A stretch of 46,190 nt of DNA from Azonexus sp. (GTDB lineage Bacteria > Pseudomonadota > Gammaproteobacteria > Burkholderiales > Rhodocyclaceae). The position numbers were made by a program, and so were the translations under genes. The stretch lies in the NCBI GenBank assembly GCA_017983755.1, contig JAGOAU010000019.1:1-46190 (forward strand). The letters are read 5' to 3'. This document shows positions 14,894 through 25,814 of this stretch, in pieces (within the stretch, counting starts at the first letter, position 1; each line of letters begins with the position of its first letter). Under the pieces are notes generated by a model. It ran no database searches. It saw only the letters and a list, made by a program, of their open reading frames with translations, and had not been told where the DNA came from.

Positions 14894-15688
14894 ATGAAAA
14901 GAAGGGATTTTCTGGCGTCGACCGCAGCGCTGCTGGTCGCCACACCGCTGTTTGCCGCCGAGGCGGGCAAGGGTAGCCTCACCTTGGGCGCCGCAATCAA
15001 CAAGGCCGGCCGCCAGCGCATGCTGTCTCAGCGCATGGCCAAGGCTTTCGCCATGCAGGCGGCCGGCGTCATGCCGGACAAGGCGGGCAGCCTGCTCGAT
15101 CACTCGCGCCGCCTGTTCGAGGCGCAACTCGCCGAACTGAAGACGCTGGCGCCGAGCGAGGCGATCCAGGCAGCGCTGGCCGATCTCGACAAGGCCTGGG
15201 CCAGCTATCGCGAGGTGCTGGCCAAGCCGCGCACCCCGGAAAACGCCCGTCTGGTGCTCGCTGAATCCGAGAAGACCCTGCGCGCCGCGCATGTTCTGAC
15301 CGGTCTCTACGAGAAACAGTCGGCGAGCAGTGCCGGCCATCTGGTCAATATTTCCGGTCGCCAGCGCATGCTGTCGCAGCGCATGGCCAAATGCTTCCTG
15401 TTCGAGCAGTCGGGCGTCGCTGTCGACAGTCTCAAGGTGGAACAGGAAGCGGCGCGGCGCGACTTCGTCGCCGCCCTCGCCGAGCTCAACGCGGCCCCGC
15501 AGAACACCGCCGAAATCCGCACCGAACTGGGCCTCGCCAATACGCAGTGGATGTTCTTCGAGCAGGCGTTGAACGGCCAGGAGCGCAACCGGGAAATCGC
15601 CGCGCGCAACGTGGCGACGACCAGCGAGCGCATCCTCGAAGTGATGGACAGCCTGACCGGCCAGTACGAAAAGCTGGTGCGCGGCTGA
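14894..15688 (+). CDS. Exported protein with two tandem NarX/PilJ-type P-box sensor modules
   Basis: A 264-aa protein with an N-terminal export signal (MKRRDFLASTAALLVATPLFAAEA; the RRDF start could be Tat or Sec). Two copies of a helical module follow, each opening with a nearly identical box: INKAGRQRMLSQRMAK (35-50) and NISGRQRMLSQRMAK (152-166). The box resembles the periplasmic P-box by which NarX/NarQ bind nitrate and nitrite, and the PilJ N-terminal domain. No membrane anchor after the signal, no HAMP, kinase or methyl-accepting domain is present. Encoded between the nitrate permease and a kinase fusion, it is plausibly a periplasmic nitrate/nitrite-binding protein, but that is inference. 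Confidence 0.75.
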   Translation: MKRRDFLASTAALLVATPLFAAEAGKGSLTLGAAINKAGRQRMLSQRMAKAFAMQAAGVMPDKAGSLLDHSRRLFEAQLAELKTLAPSEAIQAALADLDKAWASYREVLAKPRTPENARLVLAESEKTLRAAHVLTGLYEKQSASSAGHLVNISGRQRMLSQRMAKCFLFEQSGVAVDSLKVEQEAARRDFVAALAELNAAPQNTAEIRTELGLANTQWMFFEQALNGQERNREIAARNVATTSERILEVMDSLTGQYEKLVRG

Positions 15689-15733: not shown

Positions 15734-17440
15734 ATGGGAAATCTGCAGAACAACCGCCTCTGCCTGGCCGTCGGCCACGCCTCGCTGACCGGGCCGCGCG
15801 AGCGCAACGAGGACTACTGCGGCGTCGTCACGCCCGAGGGGCAGGAGCTCGAGAACAAGGGCGTCATCGCTGCCGTCGCCGACGGCATCGGTGGCCACAA
15901 GGGCGGGCGCGAGGCGGCCGAATACACGGTGCGCGGCCTGCTCTCCGACTATTTCGCGACGCCCGATACCTGGGGCGTCCCGCGCGCAGTCGAGACGGTG
16001 ACGACGGCGCTCAACCGCTGGGTCATCGCCGAAGGCAGCCGCAACGCCGAACTGGCCGGCATGGCGACGACGCTGTCGGTCCTTGTCCTGCGCGGTCGAC
16101 GCTATTACACGGCCCATATCGGTGACAGCCGCATCTATCGCCTGCAGGAAGGGCGACTGTTGCCATTGACCGTGGACCACAGCTGGGAACACCCGGAACT
16201 GAACAACGTGCTGTCGCGTGCCATTGGCCTCGACCCGCGCGTATTGATGGATTTCACCGACGGCGACCTGGCGGTCGACGACCGTTTCCTGCTCGTTTCC
16301 GACGGCGTCTGGGGCGTGTTGCCCGACGCCCTGATGGCCGAGGTGCTGCTCGACCACCCCGAGCCGCAGGCCGCCGCCGCCGCGCTGACCAGCCTGGCGC
16401 TGGCGCAGGGCGGGCACGACAACGCGACGGCGGTGGTCGTCGACGTGCTGGCCCTGCCCAGGAGCAGCCTGCGTGACAGCCTGGAGAGTGCCGCCAGCCT
16501 GCCGCTGCCGAGCCGCCTCAGGGTCGGCCACGAACTCGACGGGCTGATCGTCGAGGAAGTGCTGCACGACGCGCGGGAAACGCTGCTTTACCGCGTGCGC
16601 AACCCGCGCAGCGGCCAGCAACTGGTACTCAAGACCCTGCAGCCGATCATGGAAGGCGACGCCGGGGCGACGGCGGCGCTGCTGATGGAGGAATGGCGCG
16701 CCCGGCGTGTCGTCTCGCCTTTCTTCCCGCAGGTCGTGCCGGCCGAGGAGAAGAGCTGCCTGTATTACCTGATGACCTGGCACGCCGGCGCCACGCTGCA
16801 GGCGCGGCTCGACGCCGACCAGCATTTTCCGGCCGGCGAGGTGGTGCGCCTCGGCGTCGCGCTGCTCAAGGGCATCGCCGCGCTGCACCGGCTCGACATC
16901 GTGCATCGCGACATCAAGACCGACAACATCCATCTCGGCCAGGACGGCGTGCTGCGCATCCTCGACCTCGGCGTCGCGTTGAGCCTCGGCGAGCGCAAGC
17001 CGGACGATCCGGTCGGCCAGGCCGGCACGCCATCGTACATGGCGCCGGAACTGTTCGAAGGTGCGGCGCCGGAACCTGGTTTCGATCTCTACGCGGCCGG
17101 TGTTACGCTGTACCACCTGCTGACCCGCAAGTATCCGTATGGCGAGATCGAACCTTTCCAGAAGCCCAAATTCGGCGAGCCGGCGCGGCCGACGCGCTGG
17201 CGCCCGGAAATTCCCGGCTGGCTGGAGAACATCCTGCTCAAGGCGGTGGCGCGCGAGGCGAAGGATCGCTTCGAAACCGCCGAGGAATTCCTGCTTGCCC
17301 TCGAACGCGGGGCCAGCCGGCCGGTCGCCGCGCCAGGCCGGCAGCCGCTGGTCCAGCGCAACCCGCTCATGCTGTGGAAGATCGTTGCCGCGGCGTCGCT
17401 CGCGGTCAACCTCGTTTTGCTGCTCAAATTGCTCCACTAG
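15734..17440 (+). CDS. PP2C-type phosphatase / Ser-Thr protein kinase fusion, membrane-anchored
   Basis: A 568-aa two-domain signalling protein. Residues about 1-240 are a PP2C phosphatase with its metal-binding motifs (RERNEDYCG, DGIGGHKGG, HIGDSR, SDGVWG, GGHDNA). Residues about 270-525 are an eukaryote-like kinase with LVLKTLQP (ATP Lys), HRDIKTDN (Asp393), DLG in place of DFG, and GTPSYMAPE. The glycine loop is poorly conserved. A single C-terminal membrane helix (about 545-566) would leave both enzymes in the cytoplasm. Similar fusions sit beside nirB/nasA in some Pseudomonas. Its target is unknown. Confidence 0.88.
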   Translation: MGNLQNNRLCLAVGHASLTGPRERNEDYCGVVTPEGQELENKGVIAAVADGIGGHKGGREAAEYTVRGLLSDYFATPDTWGVPRAVETVTTALNRWVIAEGSRNAELAGMATTLSVLVLRGRRYYTAHIGDSRIYRLQEGRLLPLTVDHSWEHPELNNVLSRAIGLDPRVLMDFTDGDLAVDDRFLLVSDGVWGVLPDALMAEVLLDHPEPQAAAAALTSLALAQGGHDNATAVVVDVLALPRSSLRDSLESAASLPLPSRLRVGHELDGLIVEEVLHDARETLLYRVRNPRSGQQLVLKTLQPIMEGDAGATAALLMEEWRARRVVSPFFPQVVPAEEKSCLYYLMTWHAGATLQARLDADQHFPAGEVVRLGVALLKGIAALHRLDIVHRDIKTDNIHLGQDGVLRILDLGVALSLGERKPDDPVGQAGTPSYMAPELFEGAAPEPGFDLYAAGVTLYHLLTRKYPYGEIEPFQKPKFGEPARPTRWRPEIPGWLENILLKAVAREAKDRFETAEEFLLALERGASRPVAAPGRQPLVQRNPLMLWKIVAAASLAVNLVLLLKLLH

Positions 17441-19116: not shown

Positions 19117-19692
19117 ATGCTCACCGTACTCGTCATTGATGAATCCCGTTCGCGGGCCGGAGAAATCTGCGCCGGGCTGGCGCTCGCCGGCTATCAGGTG
19201 GCGGCGATCCTGGCCGGCTCCGAAAACCTGACGGCGGAAGTCGAGAAGCTTCAGCCCGACGTCATCCTGATCGACACCGACAGCCCGAGCCGCGACACGC
19301 TGGAAAACCTGGCGGCCATGCACAAGGACATGCCTCGCCCGGTCGTCATCTTCACCCAGGAAGACGGCCAGGCGACCATCCGCGATGCCGTCAGGGCGGG
19401 CGTTTCCGCCTATGTCGTCGATGGCCTCGATCCCAAGCGCATCAAGCCCATCGTCGAGGTGGCGCGCGCCCGTTTCGAGGACACGCAGGCCCTGCGCCGC
19501 GAGCTCGACGAGATTTCGCAGAAGCTGTCGGACCGCAAGCTGGTCGACAAGGCCAAGGGCGTGCTGATGAAGGCGCGCGGCCTCGACGAGGATGCCGCCT
19601 ACCACGCCATGCGCAAGCTGGCGATGGAGCGTGGCCAGACGATGGCCAAGGTGGCGCGCGACGTCATCGACATGGCGCGCGTGCTGCTCTGA
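19117..19692 (+). CDS. nasT: NasT-type response regulator with ANTAR RNA-binding domain
   Basis: A 191-aa regulator with an N-terminal receiver-like domain (1 to about 120; possible phospho-acceptor Asp53 in LIDTDSP) and a C-terminal ANTAR domain (about 128-188, KLVDKAKGVLMKARGLDEDAAYHAMRKLA). ANTAR proteins bind paired hexaloop hairpins in leader RNAs and prevent termination. The ATG at 19117 is chosen; the frame is open upstream inside cbiX, but that part is an overlap artefact. In other bacteria NasT is held by the nitrate sensor NasS; no NasS is in this window. It is the last gene of the nirB operon and lies just upstream of the nrtA leader, its likely target. Confidence 0.9.
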   Translation: MLTVLVIDESRSRAGEICAGLALAGYQVAAILAGSENLTAEVEKLQPDVILIDTDSPSRDTLENLAAMHKDMPRPVVIFTQEDGQATIRDAVRAGVSAYVVDGLDPKRIKPIVEVARARFEDTQALRRELDEISQKLSDRKLVDKAKGVLMKARGLDEDAAYHAMRKLAMERGQTMAKVARDVIDMARVLL

Positions 19693-19726: not shown

Positions 19727-19743
19727 TGCACTGCAACAGTGCA
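19727..19743 (+). promoter_or_regulatory. NtrC-like dyad upstream of nrtA
   Basis: TGCACTGCAACAGTGCA is a perfect 17-base dyad with the outer TGCAC and GTGCA of the NtrC consensus TGCACYANNNTGGTGCA. The centre is about 124 bases before the predicted sigma-54 start, a usual enhancer distance. Confidence 0.6.
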
Positions 19744-19832: not shown

Positions 19833-19848
19833 TGGCACGGCCATTGCA
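19833..19848 (+). promoter_or_regulatory. Sigma-54 (-24/-12) promoter of nrtABC
   Basis: TGGCACGGCCATTGCA is a perfect match to TGGCAC-N5-TTGCA, with GG (19834-19835) and GC (19846-19847) 10 bases apart. Predicted start about 19859; the leader to nrtA is 149 bases. The 315-base gap between nasT and nrtA is fully used by the NtrC-like dyad, this promoter and the leader structures. Confidence 0.9.
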
Positions 19849-19891
19849 ATAGTCCTCGTGAAACGCACGGTCAATGGCGGCCGGGCAAGAG

Positions 19892-19981
19892 TCTGATCGA
19901 TTCGATCGGACTTTGGGGACAAGGGCGTCCACCTGTGCTGCCGAGACTTTGCGGCATGGGTGTGGCGCCCGTTTTGTTTTT
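19892..19981 (+). promoter_or_regulatory. nrtA leader attenuator: ANTAR hexaloop hairpin overlapping a terminator
   Basis: GGAC (19917-19920), loop AAGGGC, GTCC (19927-19930) form a hexaloop hairpin with A at position 1 and G at position 4. The competing structure pairs GGGCG (19923-19927) and part of TCCACC with GGTGTGG and CGCCC (19966-19970), enclosing a TGCCG/CGGCA hairpin (19939-19956), and is followed by GTTTTGTTTTT (19971-19981). The two folds exclude each other, as needed for NasT-controlled antitermination. A long upstream hairpin (GTCTGATC/GATCGGAC, about 19891-19911) could be the partner hairpin, although its loop is five bases. Confidence 0.6.
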
Positions 19982-20007
19982 CGATTCGAGCAATCAAGGA
20001 GCAAGCA

Positions 20008-21273
20008 ATGGAAGACACCAAACTGGCGCCGGAATCCAAGCCGTCTTTTTCTCGTCGTGATTTTGTTTCAGCCGCACTGGGAGCATCGCTGATGACCATG
20101 GTACCCCCAGGCGTTCGCAGCGGTGCCTGGGCCGCCGGCTCGGACGCCCCCGAAAAGAAGGAAGTCCGCATCGGCTTCATCCCGCTCACCGACTGCGCCT
20201 CGGTAGTCATGGCCTCGGTGATGAAGTTCGACGAGAAATACGGCATCAAGATCATCCCGACCAAGGAAGCCTCGTGGGCTTCGGTGCGCGACAAGCTGGT
20301 CAATGGCGAGCTTGACGCCGCCCATGTCCTGTATGGCCTGATTTACGGCGTCCAGCTCGGCGTCGGTGGGCCGAAGAAGGACATGGCCAACCTGATGACC
20401 CTGAACAACAACGGGCAGGCGATCACGCTTTCCAACCAGATGAAGGACAAGGGCGCGATCGATGGGCCGAGCCTGGCGGCGCTGATCGCCAAGAAGGAAA
20501 AGGACTACACCTTCGCCCAGACCTTCCCGACCGGCACCCACGCCATGTGGCTCTACTACTGGCTGGCGGCGAACGGCATCAACCCGATGAAGGACGTCAA
20601 GACGATCACCGTGCCGCCGCCGCAGATGGTTGCCAACATGCGCGTCGGCAACATGGACGGCTTCTGTGTCGGCGAGCCGTGGAACAACCGTGCGATCATG
20701 GACAGCGTCGGCTTCACCGCCGTCACCTCGCAGGACATCTGGGTCGATCACCCGGAAAAGGTGCTCGGCACCACCGCCGAATGGGTGCAGAAGAACCCGA
20801 ACACGGCGCGCGCCATGGTTGCGGCCATCCTTGACGCCAGCAAGTGGATCGACGCCTCGATCGCCAACAAGCAGAAGACGGCCGAAACGATCGCCCAGAA
20901 GGCCTACGTCAATACCGATACCGAAGTCATCGTCGCCCGCATGCTCGGCCGCTACCAGAACGGCCTCGGCAAGAGCTGGGACGACAAGAACCACATGAAG
21001 TTCTTCAACGACGGCACGGTGAATTTCCCCTACCTGTCCGACGGCATGTGGTTCATGACGCAGCACAAGCGCTGGGGGCTGCTCAAGAGCCATCCGGATT
21101 ACCTGGCGGTCGCCAAGCAGGTCAACCGCGTCGATATCTACAAGCAGGGTGCCGCCGCTGCCGGCGTTGCCCTGCCCAAGAGCGACATGCGTACCAGCAA
21201 GCTGATCGACGGCGTTGTCTGGGACGGCAAGGACCCTGTGAAGTACGCCGACGGATTCAAGGTCAAGGCCTGA
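20008..21273 (+). CDS. nrtA: Nitrate ABC transporter, substrate-binding protein
   Basis: Periplasmic nitrate/nitrite-binding component of the high-affinity NrtABC importer. The 421-aa protein has a twin-arginine signal (SRRDFVSAA at 15-23, hydrophobic stretch, then ALG/WAAG near 40-44) and a CmpA/NrtA-type binding fold beginning EVRIGFIPLTDCASVVMA. Typical segments GTHAMWLYYWLAANGINP and FCVGEPWNNRAI are present. ATG 20008 follows AAGGAG at 7 bases; the frame is open to 19960, but that start lies inside the attenuator. It is transcribed from the sigma-54 promoter at 19833 through the leader. Confidence 0.95.
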   Translation: MEDTKLAPESKPSFSRRDFVSAALGASLMTMVPPGVRSGAWAAGSDAPEKKEVRIGFIPLTDCASVVMASVMKFDEKYGIKIIPTKEASWASVRDKLVNGELDAAHVLYGLIYGVQLGVGGPKKDMANLMTLNNNGQAITLSNQMKDKGAIDGPSLAALIAKKEKDYTFAQTFPTGTHAMWLYYWLAANGINPMKDVKTITVPPPQMVANMRVGNMDGFCVGEPWNNRAIMDSVGFTAVTSQDIWVDHPEKVLGTTAEWVQKNPNTARAMVAAILDASKWIDASIANKQKTAETIAQKAYVNTDTEVIVARMLGRYQNGLGKSWDDKNHMKFFNDGTVNFPYLSDGMWFMTQHKRWGLLKSHPDYLAVAKQVNRVDIYKQGAAAAGVALPKSDMRTSKLIDGVVWDGKDPVKYADGFKVKA

Positions 21274-21290: not shown

Positions 21291-22232
21291 ATGAGCGCAT
21301 TGACGATGAGCGGTGATTTTGGCCTTGAAAAGCCGGTCGACCGCAGCAGCATAAACAGCCAGCCGGTCGCGGAAGTTGTCGCCGAACCGGCCAAGGAAAA
21401 GAAGATGGAAAAAGTTGCAACCCTGCCGGTGGCAGATACCGGCACACCGATCGGCGAACGGCTGGCCGCCATCGGCCGTGCCATCCTGCCGCCGCTGCTC
21501 GGCATGCTGGTCCTGCTCGGCATCTGGTATGTCGCCACCCACAAGGGCGGCAGCATCCCCGGGCCGGCCCAGACCTGGGATGCGGCGGTGGCGCTGTTCG
21601 CCGATCCCTTCTACCGCAACGGGCCGAACGACCAGGGCATCGGCTGGAACGTGCTGTCCTCGCTGCAGCGGGTCGGCATCGGCTTCGGCTTCGCGGCGCT
21701 GGTCGGCATTCCGCTCGGCTTCATCCTCGGCCGCTCGCCCTTCCTGTCGGCGATGATCAACCCGATCATCAGCCTGCTGCGCCCGGTATCGCCGCTGGCC
21801 TGGCTGCCGATTGGCCTGCTCGTCTTCAAGAAGGCCGACCCGGCGGCGACCTACACCATCTTCATCTGCTCGATCTGGCCGATGATCATGAACACCGCCC
21901 AGGGCGTGCAGCGTGTGCCGCAGGACTACCTCAACGTCGCCCGCGTGCTGGCGCTGTCGGAATGGAAAGTCGTCACCAAGATCCTGTTCCCGGCCGTGCT
22001 GCCCTACATGCTGACCGGCATCCGTCTGTCGATCGGCACCGCCTGGCTGGTCATCGTCGCTGCGGAAATGCTTACCGGCGGCGTCGGCATCGGTTTCTGG
22101 GTGTGGGACGAATGGAATAACCTGAAAGTCGAGCACATCATCATCGCCATCTTCGTCATCGGCATCGTCGGCCTGATCCTCGAGCAGAGCCTGATCCTGC
22201 TGGCCAAGAAGCTGACCAAAGAATCGTCGTAA
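21291..22232 (+). CDS. nrtB: Nitrate ABC transporter, permease
   Basis: Inner-membrane permease of the NrtABC importer, 313 aa. The first ~55 residues are a cytoplasmic extension; then about six membrane helices follow. The loop that contacts the ATPase (EWKVVTKILFPAVLPYMLTG) matches the EAA motif of binding-protein-dependent permeases. ATG 21291 follows GGGGAGAGAATC and lies 17 bases after nrtA. An open frame reaches back to 20844, but it overlaps nrtA and is not used. Confidence 0.94.
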   Translation: MSALTMSGDFGLEKPVDRSSINSQPVAEVVAEPAKEKKMEKVATLPVADTGTPIGERLAAIGRAILPPLLGMLVLLGIWYVATHKGGSIPGPAQTWDAAVALFADPFYRNGPNDQGIGWNVLSSLQRVGIGFGFAALVGIPLGFILGRSPFLSAMINPIISLLRPVSPLAWLPIGLLVFKKADPAATYTIFICSIWPMIMNTAQGVQRVPQDYLNVARVLALSEWKVVTKILFPAVLPYMLTGIRLSIGTAWLVIVAAEMLTGGVGIGFWVWDEWNNLKVEHIIIAIFVIGIVGLILEQSLILLAKKLTKESS

Positions 22233-22244
22233 GGAGCGCACATC

Positions 22245-23045
22245 ATGGAAAAATTCGTACAGATCGAAGCGGTGGGCCAGACTTTCGATACCAAGAAGGG
22301 CAAGTTCGTCGCCCTGCGCGACATCGACCTGACCATCAAACAGGGCGAGTTCATCGCCCTGATCGGCCACTCCGGCTGCGGCAAGTCGACCCTGCTCAAC
22401 CTGATCGCCGGCCTGACCAGGCCGACCACCGGCGTCCTGCTCTGCGACGGCCGGGAGATCGCCGGCCCCGGTCCGGAACGCGCCGTGGTCTTCCAGAACC
22501 ACAGCCTGTTGCCCTGGCTGACCTGCTTCGAGAACGTCTATCTGGCGGTCGAGCGCGTCTTCGGCGCCAAGGAAGGCAAGGCCAGGTTGAAGGAGCGCAC
22601 CGCCGCAGCGATCAACCTGGTCGGCCTCGACCACGCCAGCAGCAAGTACCCGCATGAGATTTCGGGCGGCATGAAGCAGCGTGTCGGCATCGCCCGCGCG
22701 CTGTCGATGCAGCCGAAAGTGCTGCTGATGGACGAGCCGTTCGGTGCCCTCGATGCCTTGACCCGCGCCAAATTGCAGGACGAGCTGATGAAAATCTGCG
22801 AGGCGACCAAGGCGACCACTGTCATGGTCACCCACGATGTCGACGAGGCCGTGCTGCTCTCCGACCGCATCGTTATGATGACCAACGGCCCGGCGGCGAC
22901 CATCGGCGAAATCCTCGAAGTCAATCTGCCACGCCCGCGCGAGCGCCTGACCCTGGCGCACGATCCGGCCTACATCGACTACCGCGCTGCGGTGCTCGAA
23001 TTCCTTTACGAAAAGCAGGCGCACGTCGAGAAAATGGCCGCCTAA
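22245..23045 (+). CDS. nrtD: Nitrate ABC transporter, ATP-binding protein
   Basis: ATPase that powers nitrate import with NrtB. The 266-aa protein has Walker A (GHSGCGKST), Q-loop, the signature SGGMKQR, Walker B (VLLMDEPFGALD) and the H-loop His (VTHDVDEA). It lacks the extra NrtA-like domain of cyanobacterial NrtC, so it matches the short NrtD/NasD type; some annotation calls such proteins NrtC. It starts 12 bases after nrtB with AAGGAG and is followed by a strong terminator. Confidence 0.92.
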   Translation: MEKFVQIEAVGQTFDTKKGKFVALRDIDLTIKQGEFIALIGHSGCGKSTLLNLIAGLTRPTTGVLLCDGREIAGPGPERAVVFQNHSLLPWLTCFENVYLAVERVFGAKEGKARLKERTAAAINLVGLDHASSKYPHEISGGMKQRVGIARALSMQPKVLLMDEPFGALDALTRAKLQDELMKICEATKATTVMVTHDVDEAVLLSDRIVMMTNGPAATIGEILEVNLPRPRERLTLAHDPAYIDYRAAVLEFLYEKQAHVEKMAA

Positions 23046-23128: not shown

Positions 23129-23203
23129 GCCATTTGATTCATGTCCTTGCATTTTCCGGGGGGGCGGGGCTATGGTGCGGTTCATCGCATACGAGAGACC
23201 CCG

Positions 23204-25153
23204 ATGTTCGCTTTTCCCGGCAAGCTGTCCCGCAAGATCGTCGGGACGCTGTTCGTCTTTTTCCTGGTTGCCCTGTCGGCGATCGGCATGACGCTCTACC
23301 TGTCCTGGCAACTGGAAGGGGTGGCGGCGGCGATCAATGATGCCGGCAGCCAGCGCATGCGCACCTATCGCATCGCCCATTTGATGGCGCGCAGCCTGGA
23401 GCTCAAGAGCGAGGCCGTGGCCTTTGGCCGCGATGTACAGACCGAGGTCGAGCGTTTCGACCACGTATTGCTCGACCTGCGCCAGGGCGACCCGGCTCGG
23501 CCGATGGCGCCGCCGCGCGACGCCGACGTCCAGCAGCGCCTGCTGGCCGTGGAAGAGCAATGGCGCGAGACGATGCGCCCGCTGGCCGCGGATTTCCTGA
23601 AGGGACCGGCCGTTCAGAACGAGGCGCTGCTCGATCGCTTCGACGACGAACTCGAAGCCTTCGTCGGACGCATCAACGATCTGGTGCTGGCGATGGAGAG
23701 CAGCTACGCCCGCGACACCAATCTCCTGCGCACGGTGCAGGCAGCGCTAATCCTCCTTGCCGTGATCGGCACGGCGATCCTGATCCGTTTCTTCATGCAG
23801 CTGGTAATCCGGCCGGTCGGCGAACTGCAGGCCGGCATCCGGCGCATGACCAACGACGACCTGACGGTGCGTCTGCCGATCAAGACCGACGACGAACTGG
23901 GCGGGCTGGCGAGTGGCTTCAACCAGATGGCCGAGCACCTGCAGCAGGCCTACAACACCCTGGAGGAGCGGGTCGAAGCGGAAACCCACAACCTCGCCGA
24001 GCGCAATCGCGAACTCGGCATCCTCTACGAAATCACCGCCTTTCTCAGCGAGCCGGCGCCGATCGAGGCCATCTGCCAGGGCTATCTCAGCCGCATCCGC
24101 AACGCCCTGGGTGCCGATGCCGGGGCTGTCCGCCTGTACGCGGCCGACACCGAAAAGCTCTACCTGATGACCCACGAGGGCTTGTCGGATGAATTCGTCG
24201 TCCGCGAAAGCGAGATGAATTGCAGCGACTGTCTGTGCGGCGACGTCATCCGGACCGGCATGCCGGTCGCTTTCAGCACGCTCAATCCGCCGCCCGGCAT
24301 GAAGTTGCGGACCTGCGTGCACGAGGGCTTCGCGACGGCGACCGCCTTCAACATCCTGTACAACAAGCAGCGGATCGGCGTCTTCAATCTCTATTTTCAG
24401 CAGCATCGCGACATCTCGGCGCAGGAGGTCAACCTGCTGGAGACGCTTGGTCAGCACCTCGGCGTGGCTGTCGAGAACCAGCGCCTGCGCTCGCGCGAAA
24501 AGGAGCTGGCGGTGTCGGAAGAGCGCAACCTGCTGGCCCAGGAACTGCACGACTCGATCGCCCAGGGGCTCGCGTTCCTCAATATCCAGGTCCAGTTGCT
24601 GCAGGATTCGCTGCGCAAGGGGCGCGCCGACGAGGCCATGCAGACCGCCGGGCAACTGCGCGAAGGGGTGCAGGAAAGCTACGACCATGTGCGCGAACTG
24701 CTGGTGCATTTCCGCACCCGCATGCACCAGTCCGACCTCGATTCGGCAATCGTCGCCACGCTCGAAAAATTCGAGGGGCAGACCGGCATCGCCACCGAAT
24801 TCGCCCGTGAAGGCAGCAGCGCGCCGCTCGAGCCGACCGACGAGATCCAGGTCATGCACATCGTCCAGGAGGCGCTGTCGAATATCCGCAAGCATGCGCG
24901 TGCCAGCAAGGTTCAGGTCAAGGTGCGCCGTTCGCGGCGCGCGGTCGAGGTGGAAGTGGCGGACGACGGGGCCGGTTTCGATCCGGTGAACGAGCCGAAA
25001 GTCCTGTCGGAGCGCCATGTCGGGCTCAAGATCATGCGCGAGCGGGCGCACCGTATCGGCGGGGAGTGTCAGATAACATCGGCACCGGGCGAGGGCGCGC
25101 GGGTGCGCCTCGTCCTGCCGAAAAAGCAAGGGGAGGTTGTTCGAGATGACTGA
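23204..25153 (+). CDS. narX: NarX-type nitrate/nitrite sensor histidine kinase
   Basis: Membrane histidine kinase, 649 aa. Order: membrane helix (about 12-33), periplasmic P-box AINDAGSQRMRTYRIA (42-57) and helical sensor, second helix (about 178-200), HAMP (VIRPVGELQAGIRRM, around 205-255), GAF-like region (about 290-435) with a Cys group CSDCLCG, a HisKA_3 dimerisation box with phospho-acceptor His449 (QELHDSIAQGL), and a HATPase_c domain (NIRKHA, DDGAGF, GLKIMRERA). ATG 23204 is preferred over the upstream ATG 23141 because it gives a normal N-terminus. It overlaps the regulator gene by 8 bases. 'NarX' is by domain order; exact orthology is not proven. Confidence 0.88.
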   Translation: MFAFPGKLSRKIVGTLFVFFLVALSAIGMTLYLSWQLEGVAAAINDAGSQRMRTYRIAHLMARSLELKSEAVAFGRDVQTEVERFDHVLLDLRQGDPARPMAPPRDADVQQRLLAVEEQWRETMRPLAADFLKGPAVQNEALLDRFDDELEAFVGRINDLVLAMESSYARDTNLLRTVQAALILLAVIGTAILIRFFMQLVIRPVGELQAGIRRMTNDDLTVRLPIKTDDELGGLASGFNQMAEHLQQAYNTLEERVEAETHNLAERNRELGILYEITAFLSEPAPIEAICQGYLSRIRNALGADAGAVRLYAADTEKLYLMTHEGLSDEFVVRESEMNCSDCLCGDVIRTGMPVAFSTLNPPPGMKLRTCVHEGFATATAFNILYNKQRIGVFNLYFQQHRDISAQEVNLLETLGQHLGVAVENQRLRSREKELAVSEERNLLAQELHDSIAQGLAFLNIQVQLLQDSLRKGRADEAMQTAGQLREGVQESYDHVRELLVHFRTRMHQSDLDSAIVATLEKFEGQTGIATEFAREGSSAPLEPTDEIQVMHIVQEALSNIRKHARASKVQVKVRRSRRAVEVEVADDGAGFDPVNEPKVLSERHVGLKIMRERAHRIGGECQITSAPGEGARVRLVLPKKQGEVVRDD

Positions 25154-25814
25154 AAAGATCCGTGTGCTGCTGGTCGACGACCACGCCCTGTTTCGCGGCG
25201 GGGTCAAGGCGCTGTTGCAGCGCCATGACGATTTCGAGGTGCTCGACGAGACCGGCGACGGACTGGAAGGCATCAAGCGGGCGCGCTCGCTGCAGCCCGA
25301 CGTCGTCCTGCTCGACCTGCACATGCCCGGCATCAGCGGGCTGGAGGCGGTCAAGGTCATCAACGAGGAAATTCCCGGCGTCCGGGTGCTGATGCTGACG
25401 GTTTCCGAAGACGCGCAGGACCTGATGGAAGCGCTGCGCGCCGGGGCCAGCGGCTATCTGTTGAAGAACATCGAGACCGACGCCCTGCTCGATGCCATCC
25501 GCCGTGCCGCCGAGGGTGATTCTGTGGTGTCGCCGCAGATGACGGCCAAGCTGATCCAGGGGGTGCGCGAGCAGCCGAAGGTGTCGAGCCTGGTCGTCGA
25601 GCGCGACAAGTTCTCACCGCGCGAGCGCGACATCCTCGCCTGCCTGGCCCAGGGCGAGAGCAACAAGGAAATCGCCCGTGCCCTCGATCTCGCCGAAAGC
25701 ACGGTCAAGATCCACGTCCAGAACATCTTCAAGAAGCTGAACATGACGAGCCGCGTGCAGGTCGCGCTCTATGCCGTGGAGCATGGCTTCGGCCCGCAGC
25801 CGCGCCATGCCTGA
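25146..25814 (+). CDS. narL: NarL-type response regulator
   Basis: A 222-aa two-domain regulator. The receiver has the acidic pocket (Asp11, Asp12), phospho-acceptor Asp57 (VLLDLHMPG) and LLKN. The C-terminal LuxR/NarL helix-turn-helix is at about 152-212 (FSPRERDILACLAQGESNKEIARALDLAESTVKIHVQNIFKKL). ATG 25146 lies inside the end of the kinase gene (ATGACTGA overlap), typical of a coupled pair. It probably controls nitrate-responsive promoters. It ends 9 bases from the convergent small gene that ends at 25824. Confidence 0.9.
   Translation: MTEKIRVLLVDDHALFRGGVKALLQRHDDFEVLDETGDGLEGIKRARSLQPDVVLLDLHMPGISGLEAVKVINEEIPGVRVLMLTVSEDAQDLMEALRAGASGYLLKNIETDALLDAIRRAAEGDSVVSPQMTAKLIQGVREQPKVSSLVVERDKFSPRERDILACLAQGESNKEIARALDLAESTVKIHVQNIFKKLNMTSRVQVALYAVEHGFGPQPRHA

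Follow-up and report, generated by a model that had tools for sequence, protein, structure and literature searches.

The window (the whole 46,190-nucleotide stretch of DNA that was analysed) carries a cluster of nitrate genes on the + strand in the order nasT, leader, nrtA, nrtB, nrtC/D, NarX/NarQ-like kinase and NarL-like regulator. The genes and promoter elements that concern us here are as follows:

19117-19692, + strand: nasT, receiver-like and ANTAR RNA-binding protein (Pfam PF03861, E-value: 4e-19, and PF00072; best PDB sequence match 6wsh)
19727-19743, strand not set: NtrC-like dyad TGCACT-N5-AGTGCA, found by eye
19833-19848, + strand: sigma-54 promoter TGGCAC-N5-TTGCA (spacer GGCCA), read from the sequence
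20008-21273, + strand: nrtA, nitrate-type binding protein with a twin-arginine signal (assigned by eye), kin of signal-less NasS proteins
21291-22232, + strand: nrtB, permease (TIGR01183, above cut-off)
22245-23045, + strand: nrtC/D, ATPase (TIGR01184, above cut-off)

The first-pass annotation had named the gene adjacent to the leader as a NasT-type ANTAR protein, and Pfam agrees: the ANTAR domain scores 68.6 bits and lies alongside a receiver domain. NasT is the sole ANTAR match in its own genome (74% complete), and its best PDB match, 6wsh, is one that we take to be EutV. From the sigma-54 site, transcription is expected to start near 19859. The candidate NtrC-like dyad at 19727-19743, called against the NtrC consensus, lies about 115-130 bp upstream of that expected start. 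The nitrate genes are flanked on one side by a PilJ-domain protein with a Tat-like signal and a PP2C phosphatase-kinase fusion (14894-15688 and 15734-17440), and on the other by the NarX/Q-NarL-like pair at 23141-25814.

The leader contains the following elements:

19865-19886, + strand: P1 ANTAR hairpin, hexaloop AAUGGC (19873-19878) with A1 and G4
19888-19914, + strand: spacer hairpin of 12 bp with loop AUU, inside the P1-P2 linker
19917-19930, + strand: P2 ANTAR hairpin, GGAC-AAGGGC-GTCC, with a 4-bp stem and hexaloop AAGGGC (19921-19926) with A1 and G4
19923-19970, + strand: intrinsic terminator hairpin that excludes P2, from folding
19971-19981, + strand: T-rich run GTTTTGTTTTT (9 T of 11) directly after the terminator, read from the sequence

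P2, the bases that it shares with a terminator ending at 19970 and the 11-base T-rich run had been described in the first-pass annotation, with the statement that the two folds cannot coexist, and all of these features are read in the sequence. Bases 19923-19930 are common to P2 and the left arm of the terminator, and the P2 pairs have a probability of 0.0 in the full-leader ensemble, so the two folds are incompatible. Only a single hexaloop was described in that annotation; P2 was correctly identified, but the full motif is a dual hexaloop of which P1 was overlooked. Two A1/G4 hexaloop hairpins with stems of at least 3 bp are present, together with a terminator overlapping P2 and an ANTAR protein encoded in the genome. 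The 12-bp spacer hairpin and the missing separate NasS gene, which went unremarked in the annotation, are more unusual than the points that it raised.

The leader (19859-19985) has a minimum-energy fold made up of P1, the linker hairpin and the terminator (-63.6 kcal/mol, z -5.6), and none of 200 shuffles is as stable. The core pairs of P1 have probabilities of 0.98-1.00. Forcing P2 in the full RNA gives -56.6 kcal/mol, a cost of 7 kcal/mol. In prefix RNAs with a 3' end at 19931-19941, P1, the linker hairpin and P2 all form; with the end at 19950-19966 a long-range fold breaks P1 and retains the linker hairpin and P2, and with the end at 19971 the terminator forms. The overlap of hexaloop and terminator, for which the annotation had proposed a folding check, is seen in these folds.

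Upstream regions of related nrtA genes were taken from an NrtA scan of genome contigs, using the best 80 of 591 related stretches; 78 have at least 100 nt upstream, and the two loci that were too short were dropped. A three-part detector (sigma-54 box, P1 and P2/terminator) fires in 44 of these 78 regions. P2 with an overlapping terminator is found in 60 of the 78 and the box in 72. The full trio occurs in none of 390 dinucleotide shuffles (P2/terminator 2, box 0) and in none of 351 random segments from the same loci (P2/terminator 1, box 3). The detector is negative in 34 of the 78 regions, some of which may fail because of the strict rules and short contigs. Among the same best 80 of 591, a NasT match is present at 67 loci and each stretch has one NrtA-like frame. 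An ANTAR gene is encoded in 43 of the 46 family genomes with an nrtA of at least 60% identity.

The P2 pattern was looked for in 40 genomes of the genus, 35 of which have a match; 40 places, picked mainly by the GGAC...GTCC stem, were fetched. Twenty-eight of these precede a gene at least 75% identical to NrtA, all with a sigma-54 box. The pattern also matches coding sequence (12 of the 40 places have neither an nrtA match nor a sigma-54 box) and its reversed form is about equally frequent in the 40 genomes (78 versus 73), so that the P2 pattern alone proves nothing. Twenty-five of the 28 genes have a signal sequence (19 distinct, 6 duplicates) and three do not (L132, L138 and L154), these being nasS genes with a classic nrtA behind them; all 25 signal-bearing nrtA leaders retain both hexaloops and the terminator. 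G062, a complete genome of the same genus, has nasT and nrtA on separate contigs, more than 150 kb from the contig ends, and its nrtA leader is intact, indicating that the pair is retained without linkage. The G062 nasT precedes ribosomal-protein-like frames (L099 and L100). The leader model R1 finds a single strong site in seven of eight genus genomes; in the eighth, G113, the site is a hairpin-less leader scoring 22.9 bits. Second, weak R1 matches of similar score in G000, G082 and G096 were rejected as protein-coding (pyrF-like frame by reading). With the short-linker model R2, the best match across the window's own genome is the nrtA leader (E-value: 0.35), with nothing stronger.

Compensatory changes in homologous leaders, another check proposed in the first-pass annotation, are found in the P1, P2 and spacer stems. 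In 19 short-linker leaders (alignment A3) the P1 and P2 helices are paired in 96.1% of cells. Double-change cells number 36, compared with 9.5 in shuffled alignments and at most 16 with slid partners. Because both stems barely vary within the genus, their covariation comes from more distant leaders. For the spacer hairpin, 30 leaders aligned by model R1 (A5, which excludes L132 and L138 and, being aligned to the model structure, favours that structure) give 39 double-change cells against 12.6 shuffled and at most 6 slid, with double changes in eight of the nine modelled pairs. In A5, 80.5% of hairpin cells are paired and the inner pairs are mostly not conserved. An independent MAFFT alignment of 11 leaders (A1) gives a result of the same sign (14 double-change cells against 5.3).

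P1 and P2 are 30 nt apart, and the hairpin occupies 27 of these, leaving 1 + 2 unpaired nucleotides. The linker was compared in 39 leaders (the window, 10 near relatives, not all of them named to genus, and 28 genus leaders), which represent 31 distinct sequences. In 29 of the 31 the linker is 24-34 nt long (by the script's 4-bp definition of P1), and all 29 long linkers fold below their own shuffle mean (mean z -2.4), the weakest (L154, -0.01) no better than its shuffles. The same-genus leaders L132 and L138 have a 7-nt linker with no hairpin and are both ahead of a signal-less nasS form. The loop of the genus hairpin is 3-9 nt, and an A1/G4 hexaloop was found in none of the 28 distinct linkers checked. 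The number of unpaired bases left in the linker was dropped as evidence because shuffled linkers leave about as few, leaving energy and covariation as the arguments for the hairpin. A third hexaloop hairpin is found mid-leader in several Cupriavidus/Comamonadaceae records, and three successive hexaloop hairpins rather than two were seen in L028, L029, L030, L032, L042, L045, L065 and L079. Other leaders have a long linker with no hairpin (L071, 20 nt; L035, L065 and L073, 15 nt). Both kinds of leader weaken a strict spacer rule.

In the EutV study of Ramesh 2012, linkers are 5-12 nt and induction is drastically lost at 3 or 14 nt (PMC3369931), and the addition of 20 nt to the EutV linker is reported to abolish antitermination in vitro (Walshe 2022, PMC8934654). 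Wider limits have also been used: an actinobacterial survey accepted linkers of 2-25 nt (PMC8164766), and the search model of Ramesh 2012 itself permitted a variable linker (PMC3369931). Against these ranges the window linker measures 30 nt raw, longer than the spacings at which EutV works, and about 3 nt unpaired when the hairpin is discounted. On the simplest reading, the linker hairpin would be a fold-out insertion that holds the hexaloops near each other, and the comparison shows how an ANTAR linker may lengthen while its hexaloops remain close.

It is doubtful that the linker hairpin is instead a separate element, such as a site for RNase or for pausing, or a third ANTAR hairpin that has decayed. 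Such an origin would agree with the third mid-leader hexaloop of the Cupriavidus/Comamonadaceae leaders L028, L030, L032, L042, L045, L065 and L079, and the genus hairpin accompanies signal-bearing nrtA and is absent before the signal-less form in two leaders, so it may be linked to gene type. However, the genus loops lack the A1/G4 hexaloop while the stem covaries, and the linker is 7 nt where the hairpin is missing. A far less credible explanation is that the terminator is an ordinary one, either in the leader or at the end of the nasT transcript, with hexaloops that arose by chance. Although nasT lies directly upstream in the same direction, a sigma-54 box separates it from the leader, G062 keeps the leader with its nasT elsewhere, and the detector fires in no shuffle or random segment. 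The covariation of P1/P2 and of the spacer also contradicts it.

The leader is a genuine and well-conserved NasT-type ANTAR attenuator, known in kind and variant in its hairpin-filled linker and in the absence of a separate NasS. ANTAR motifs upstream of nitrate/nitrite transporters have already been reported in general terms (Ramesh 2012, PMC3369931). The nasA/nirB leaders of the NasS-NasT systems of Paracoccus, Azotobacter and Pseudomonas combine the same REC-like/ANTAR NasT with a hairpin leader before nitrate-assimilation genes, and NasT binds nasA leader RNA in gel shifts (PMC3795266). Here, in contrast, no separate nasS was found, the target is nrtABC with a Tat-type binding protein, and a hairpin fills the 30-nt linker. 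The eut leaders controlled by EutV in Enterococcus have the same two A1/G4 hexaloops, with P2 overlapping the terminator, but their linkers are 5-12 nt (PMC3369931) rather than 30 nt with a hairpin. In the receiver-like domain, the window NasT has D at the position of the conserved K of EutV, by reading of the 6wsh alignment. Klebsiella nasF, which opens a nitrate ABC importer operon controlled by nitrogen and sigma-54, is subject to the same nitrate-responsive ANTAR antitermination, although NasR is a one-protein NIT-ANTAR sensor, whereas the window NasT is receiver-like plus ANTAR with no NIT domain. The likeness to nasF drawn in the first-pass annotation holds for ANTAR antitermination; the contrast that it made of the importer and the sigma-54 promoter is weak, as nasF shares both features.

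The model that we propose for this locus is the following. The sigma-54-type promoter would drive nrtABC, probably under nitrogen-limitation control. The nascent RNA is predicted to fold P1, next the spacer hairpin and next P2. Active NasT on P1/P2 would block the terminator, so that nrtABC is transcribed by read-through; without active NasT, the far more stable terminator would form. The spacer hairpin would absorb 27 linker nucleotides, leaving about 3 unpaired, such that the two hexaloops stay near each other. Nitrate is the probable signal. It is highly probable that the leader attenuates transcription of the nrtABC nitrate importer in a NasT-dependent way, as had been suggested from the sequence: the adjoining NasT, the mutually exclusive folds and the covariation in homologous leaders all support this reading.

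In the systems described to date, NasS restrains NasT until nitrate or nitrite binds (PMC3795266). The window's own genome (74% complete) and G062 (100% complete) were searched for a second NrtA/NasS-like protein, and neither yielded one. An ANTAR gene together with exactly one NrtA-like protein is encoded in 27 of the 81 family genomes, that of the window included (matches weaker than approximately 1e-58 are uncounted). Genomes with no separate NasS offer a direct test case for how NasT is switched. Second NrtA-like copies at 35-38% identity were considered as NasS candidates and rejected: L101, the sole one opened, is in an operon with a cyanase-like frame (by reading), and so the group was taken as cyanate-type.

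The window NrtA is itself a relative of NasS. It is 48-57% identical to four signal-less proteins encoded beside nasT (L211, L213, L214 and L215), which show 29-36% identity to the other NasS type or to classic NrtA. In a 43-row tree, these four and the window NrtA fall in a 23-row clade (100/99), with the four together at 97/92. A closer kinship of the window NrtA with NasS than with other binding proteins was not supported by the first tree, in which L173/L174-type NasS was the only one included, and held once the NasS proteins of G281, G252, G365 and G189 were included. Two same-genus genomes, G113 and G116, have the gene order narK-kinase-nasT-leader-signal-less gene-classic nrtA-nrtB, and a short contig of G105 (same genus) has the matching middle part. 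The signal-less gene of these three genomes (L236-L238) is 72-74% identical to the window NrtA. A 48-row tree groups all of these in a single 29-row clade (100/100), and within it the three genus NasS proteins join L176 (99/94) and not the small group of the window. Long branches, and an odd composition of the four signal-less rows, drew warnings from the tree program. Two of the L236-L238 leaders, which precede nasS, are without the spacer hairpin. Gene starts and signals are our own calls, and the twin-arginine flags on L213 and L214 are attributed to RREV in the mature part. The tree placement and the genus loci thus show a family that alternates between signal-less and signal-bearing forms.

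A second family behaves similarly. The seven-row group of L173-L175, L224 and L230-L232 mixes both forms (85/83 in the 43-row tree), and its signal-bearing members form their own group in the 48-row tree (84/83). L175, L224, L230 and L232 are 61-69% identical to L173/L174-type NasS, yet have Tat-type signals and adjoin nrtB. Sensor and binding protein thus seem to have swapped roles in this second lineage. Signal-less NasS is usually accompanied by a separate classic nrtA (L173, L174, L213-L215, L225-L227 and L236-L238), with narK alongside instead in L211. Exceptions to an either/or rule are L176, a signal-bearing form with a classic nrtA, and G269 and G381, in which the signal-bearing form occurs with another NrtA-like frame.

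A possible internal translation start was found within nrtA:

20079-20094, + strand: GGGAGCATCGCTGATG, possible internal Shine-Dalgarno sequence GGGAG (20079-20083) and ATG (20092-20094, codon 29)

GGGAG sits 8 nt before codon 29. The glycine codon at this site is GGA in all 31 distinct signal-bearing genus genes, while in the same genes GGA encodes 8 of the 839 glycines of the mature part and none of the 8 other signal-region glycines; the three signal-less genus genes have no such glycine codon. No other of the 87 four-fold columns has A as its main third base. The third base is invariant in nine of the 87, and in the other eight it is G or C. The predicted Shine-Dalgarno pairing is among the best 3% of the gene's codons in 18 of the 31 genes and ranks in roughly the top 5% in every one. 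Beyond the genus, 6 of 20 genes use GGA, near the 9 of 38 for other signal-region glycines, a background level that confines the constraint to the genus, whose species share ancestry. A protein started at codon 29 would have 24 residues before VRIGF, compared with 23 in the three genus NasS proteins (counted from the second of two ATGs in L138 and L154).

We tentatively suggest, as a possibility short of an even chance, that a NasS is hidden in nrtA: the signal-less codon-29 form would restrain NasT until nitrate binds, and the full-length form, exported by the Tat system, would feed the transporter. If so, one gene would supply both the binding protein of the importer and the protein that represses its own attenuator, which would close a feedback loop. 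The GGA constraint might instead reflect translational pausing in signal peptides or inheritance without function. Tat substrates fold before export, and sensing by the uncleaved NrtA precursor is a further alternative. Since no NasS was found, the attenuator could also be real and NasT constitutively active, with nrtABC controlled at the sigma-54 promoter only. The single NrtA-like protein found in the window's 74%-complete genome and in complete G062 fits this explanation, as does a Paracoccus nasS mutant reported to express nas without nitrate (PMC5424462). A useless attenuator should decay, yet the hexaloops and terminator are kept in the 25 signal-bearing genus leaders, and NrtA, as a NasS relative, could itself be the sensor. 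We consider constitutive NasT unlikely.

The window scores below the cut-offs of two Rfam families, RF03032 (narK; 20 bits, cut-off 43.2) and RF00625 (P11; 16.3 bits, cut-off 70), probably because of its long linker. The consensus of these families contains a sigma-54-like box and a hexaloop hairpin (GAC-AAAGAC-GUC or GGAC-AAAGGC-GUCC). The RF03032 model seems to take in the -24/-12 promoter, that is, DNA rather than RNA. In the 81 family genomes RF03032 has 24 matches (E-value: 0.001 or less), two of them above the Rfam cut-off; 22 of the 24 overlap a dual-hexaloop R2 match, and 19 are found no more than 400 nt upstream of an nrtA-like gene. Of the five that are not before nrtA, one lies in G011; the other four, which were opened, are ahead of nirB, a FocA/NirC-like frame, cobA-nasC and cobA-nirB (L179-L182, with gene names from a reading of the frames). 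P11 has 12 matches in 369 genomes of the class, one above cut-off; 11 of the 12 overlap an R2 match (E-value: 1 or less; P2 half only in L205) and precede nirB-like or nrtA/nasS-like frames. The P11 match L199:5441-5580 is among those examined as ANTAR-hexaloop leaders before nirB/nrtA-type genes. In G281, which has the above-cut-off P11 match and is taken as Pseudomonas-like, the order is nasS-nasT-leader-narK-kinase-P11-nirB. These matches link both families, narK RNA and P11, to NasT antitermination; our literature search for such a link found no paper stating it. The P. stutzeri ncRNA NfiR, described as homologous to P11, depends on NtrC for its expression and has a predicted sigma-54 site (PMC6606865). 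NfiR may be such a leader too, and the "small RNAs" of P11 type may not be dedicated regulators but leaders that have been terminated.
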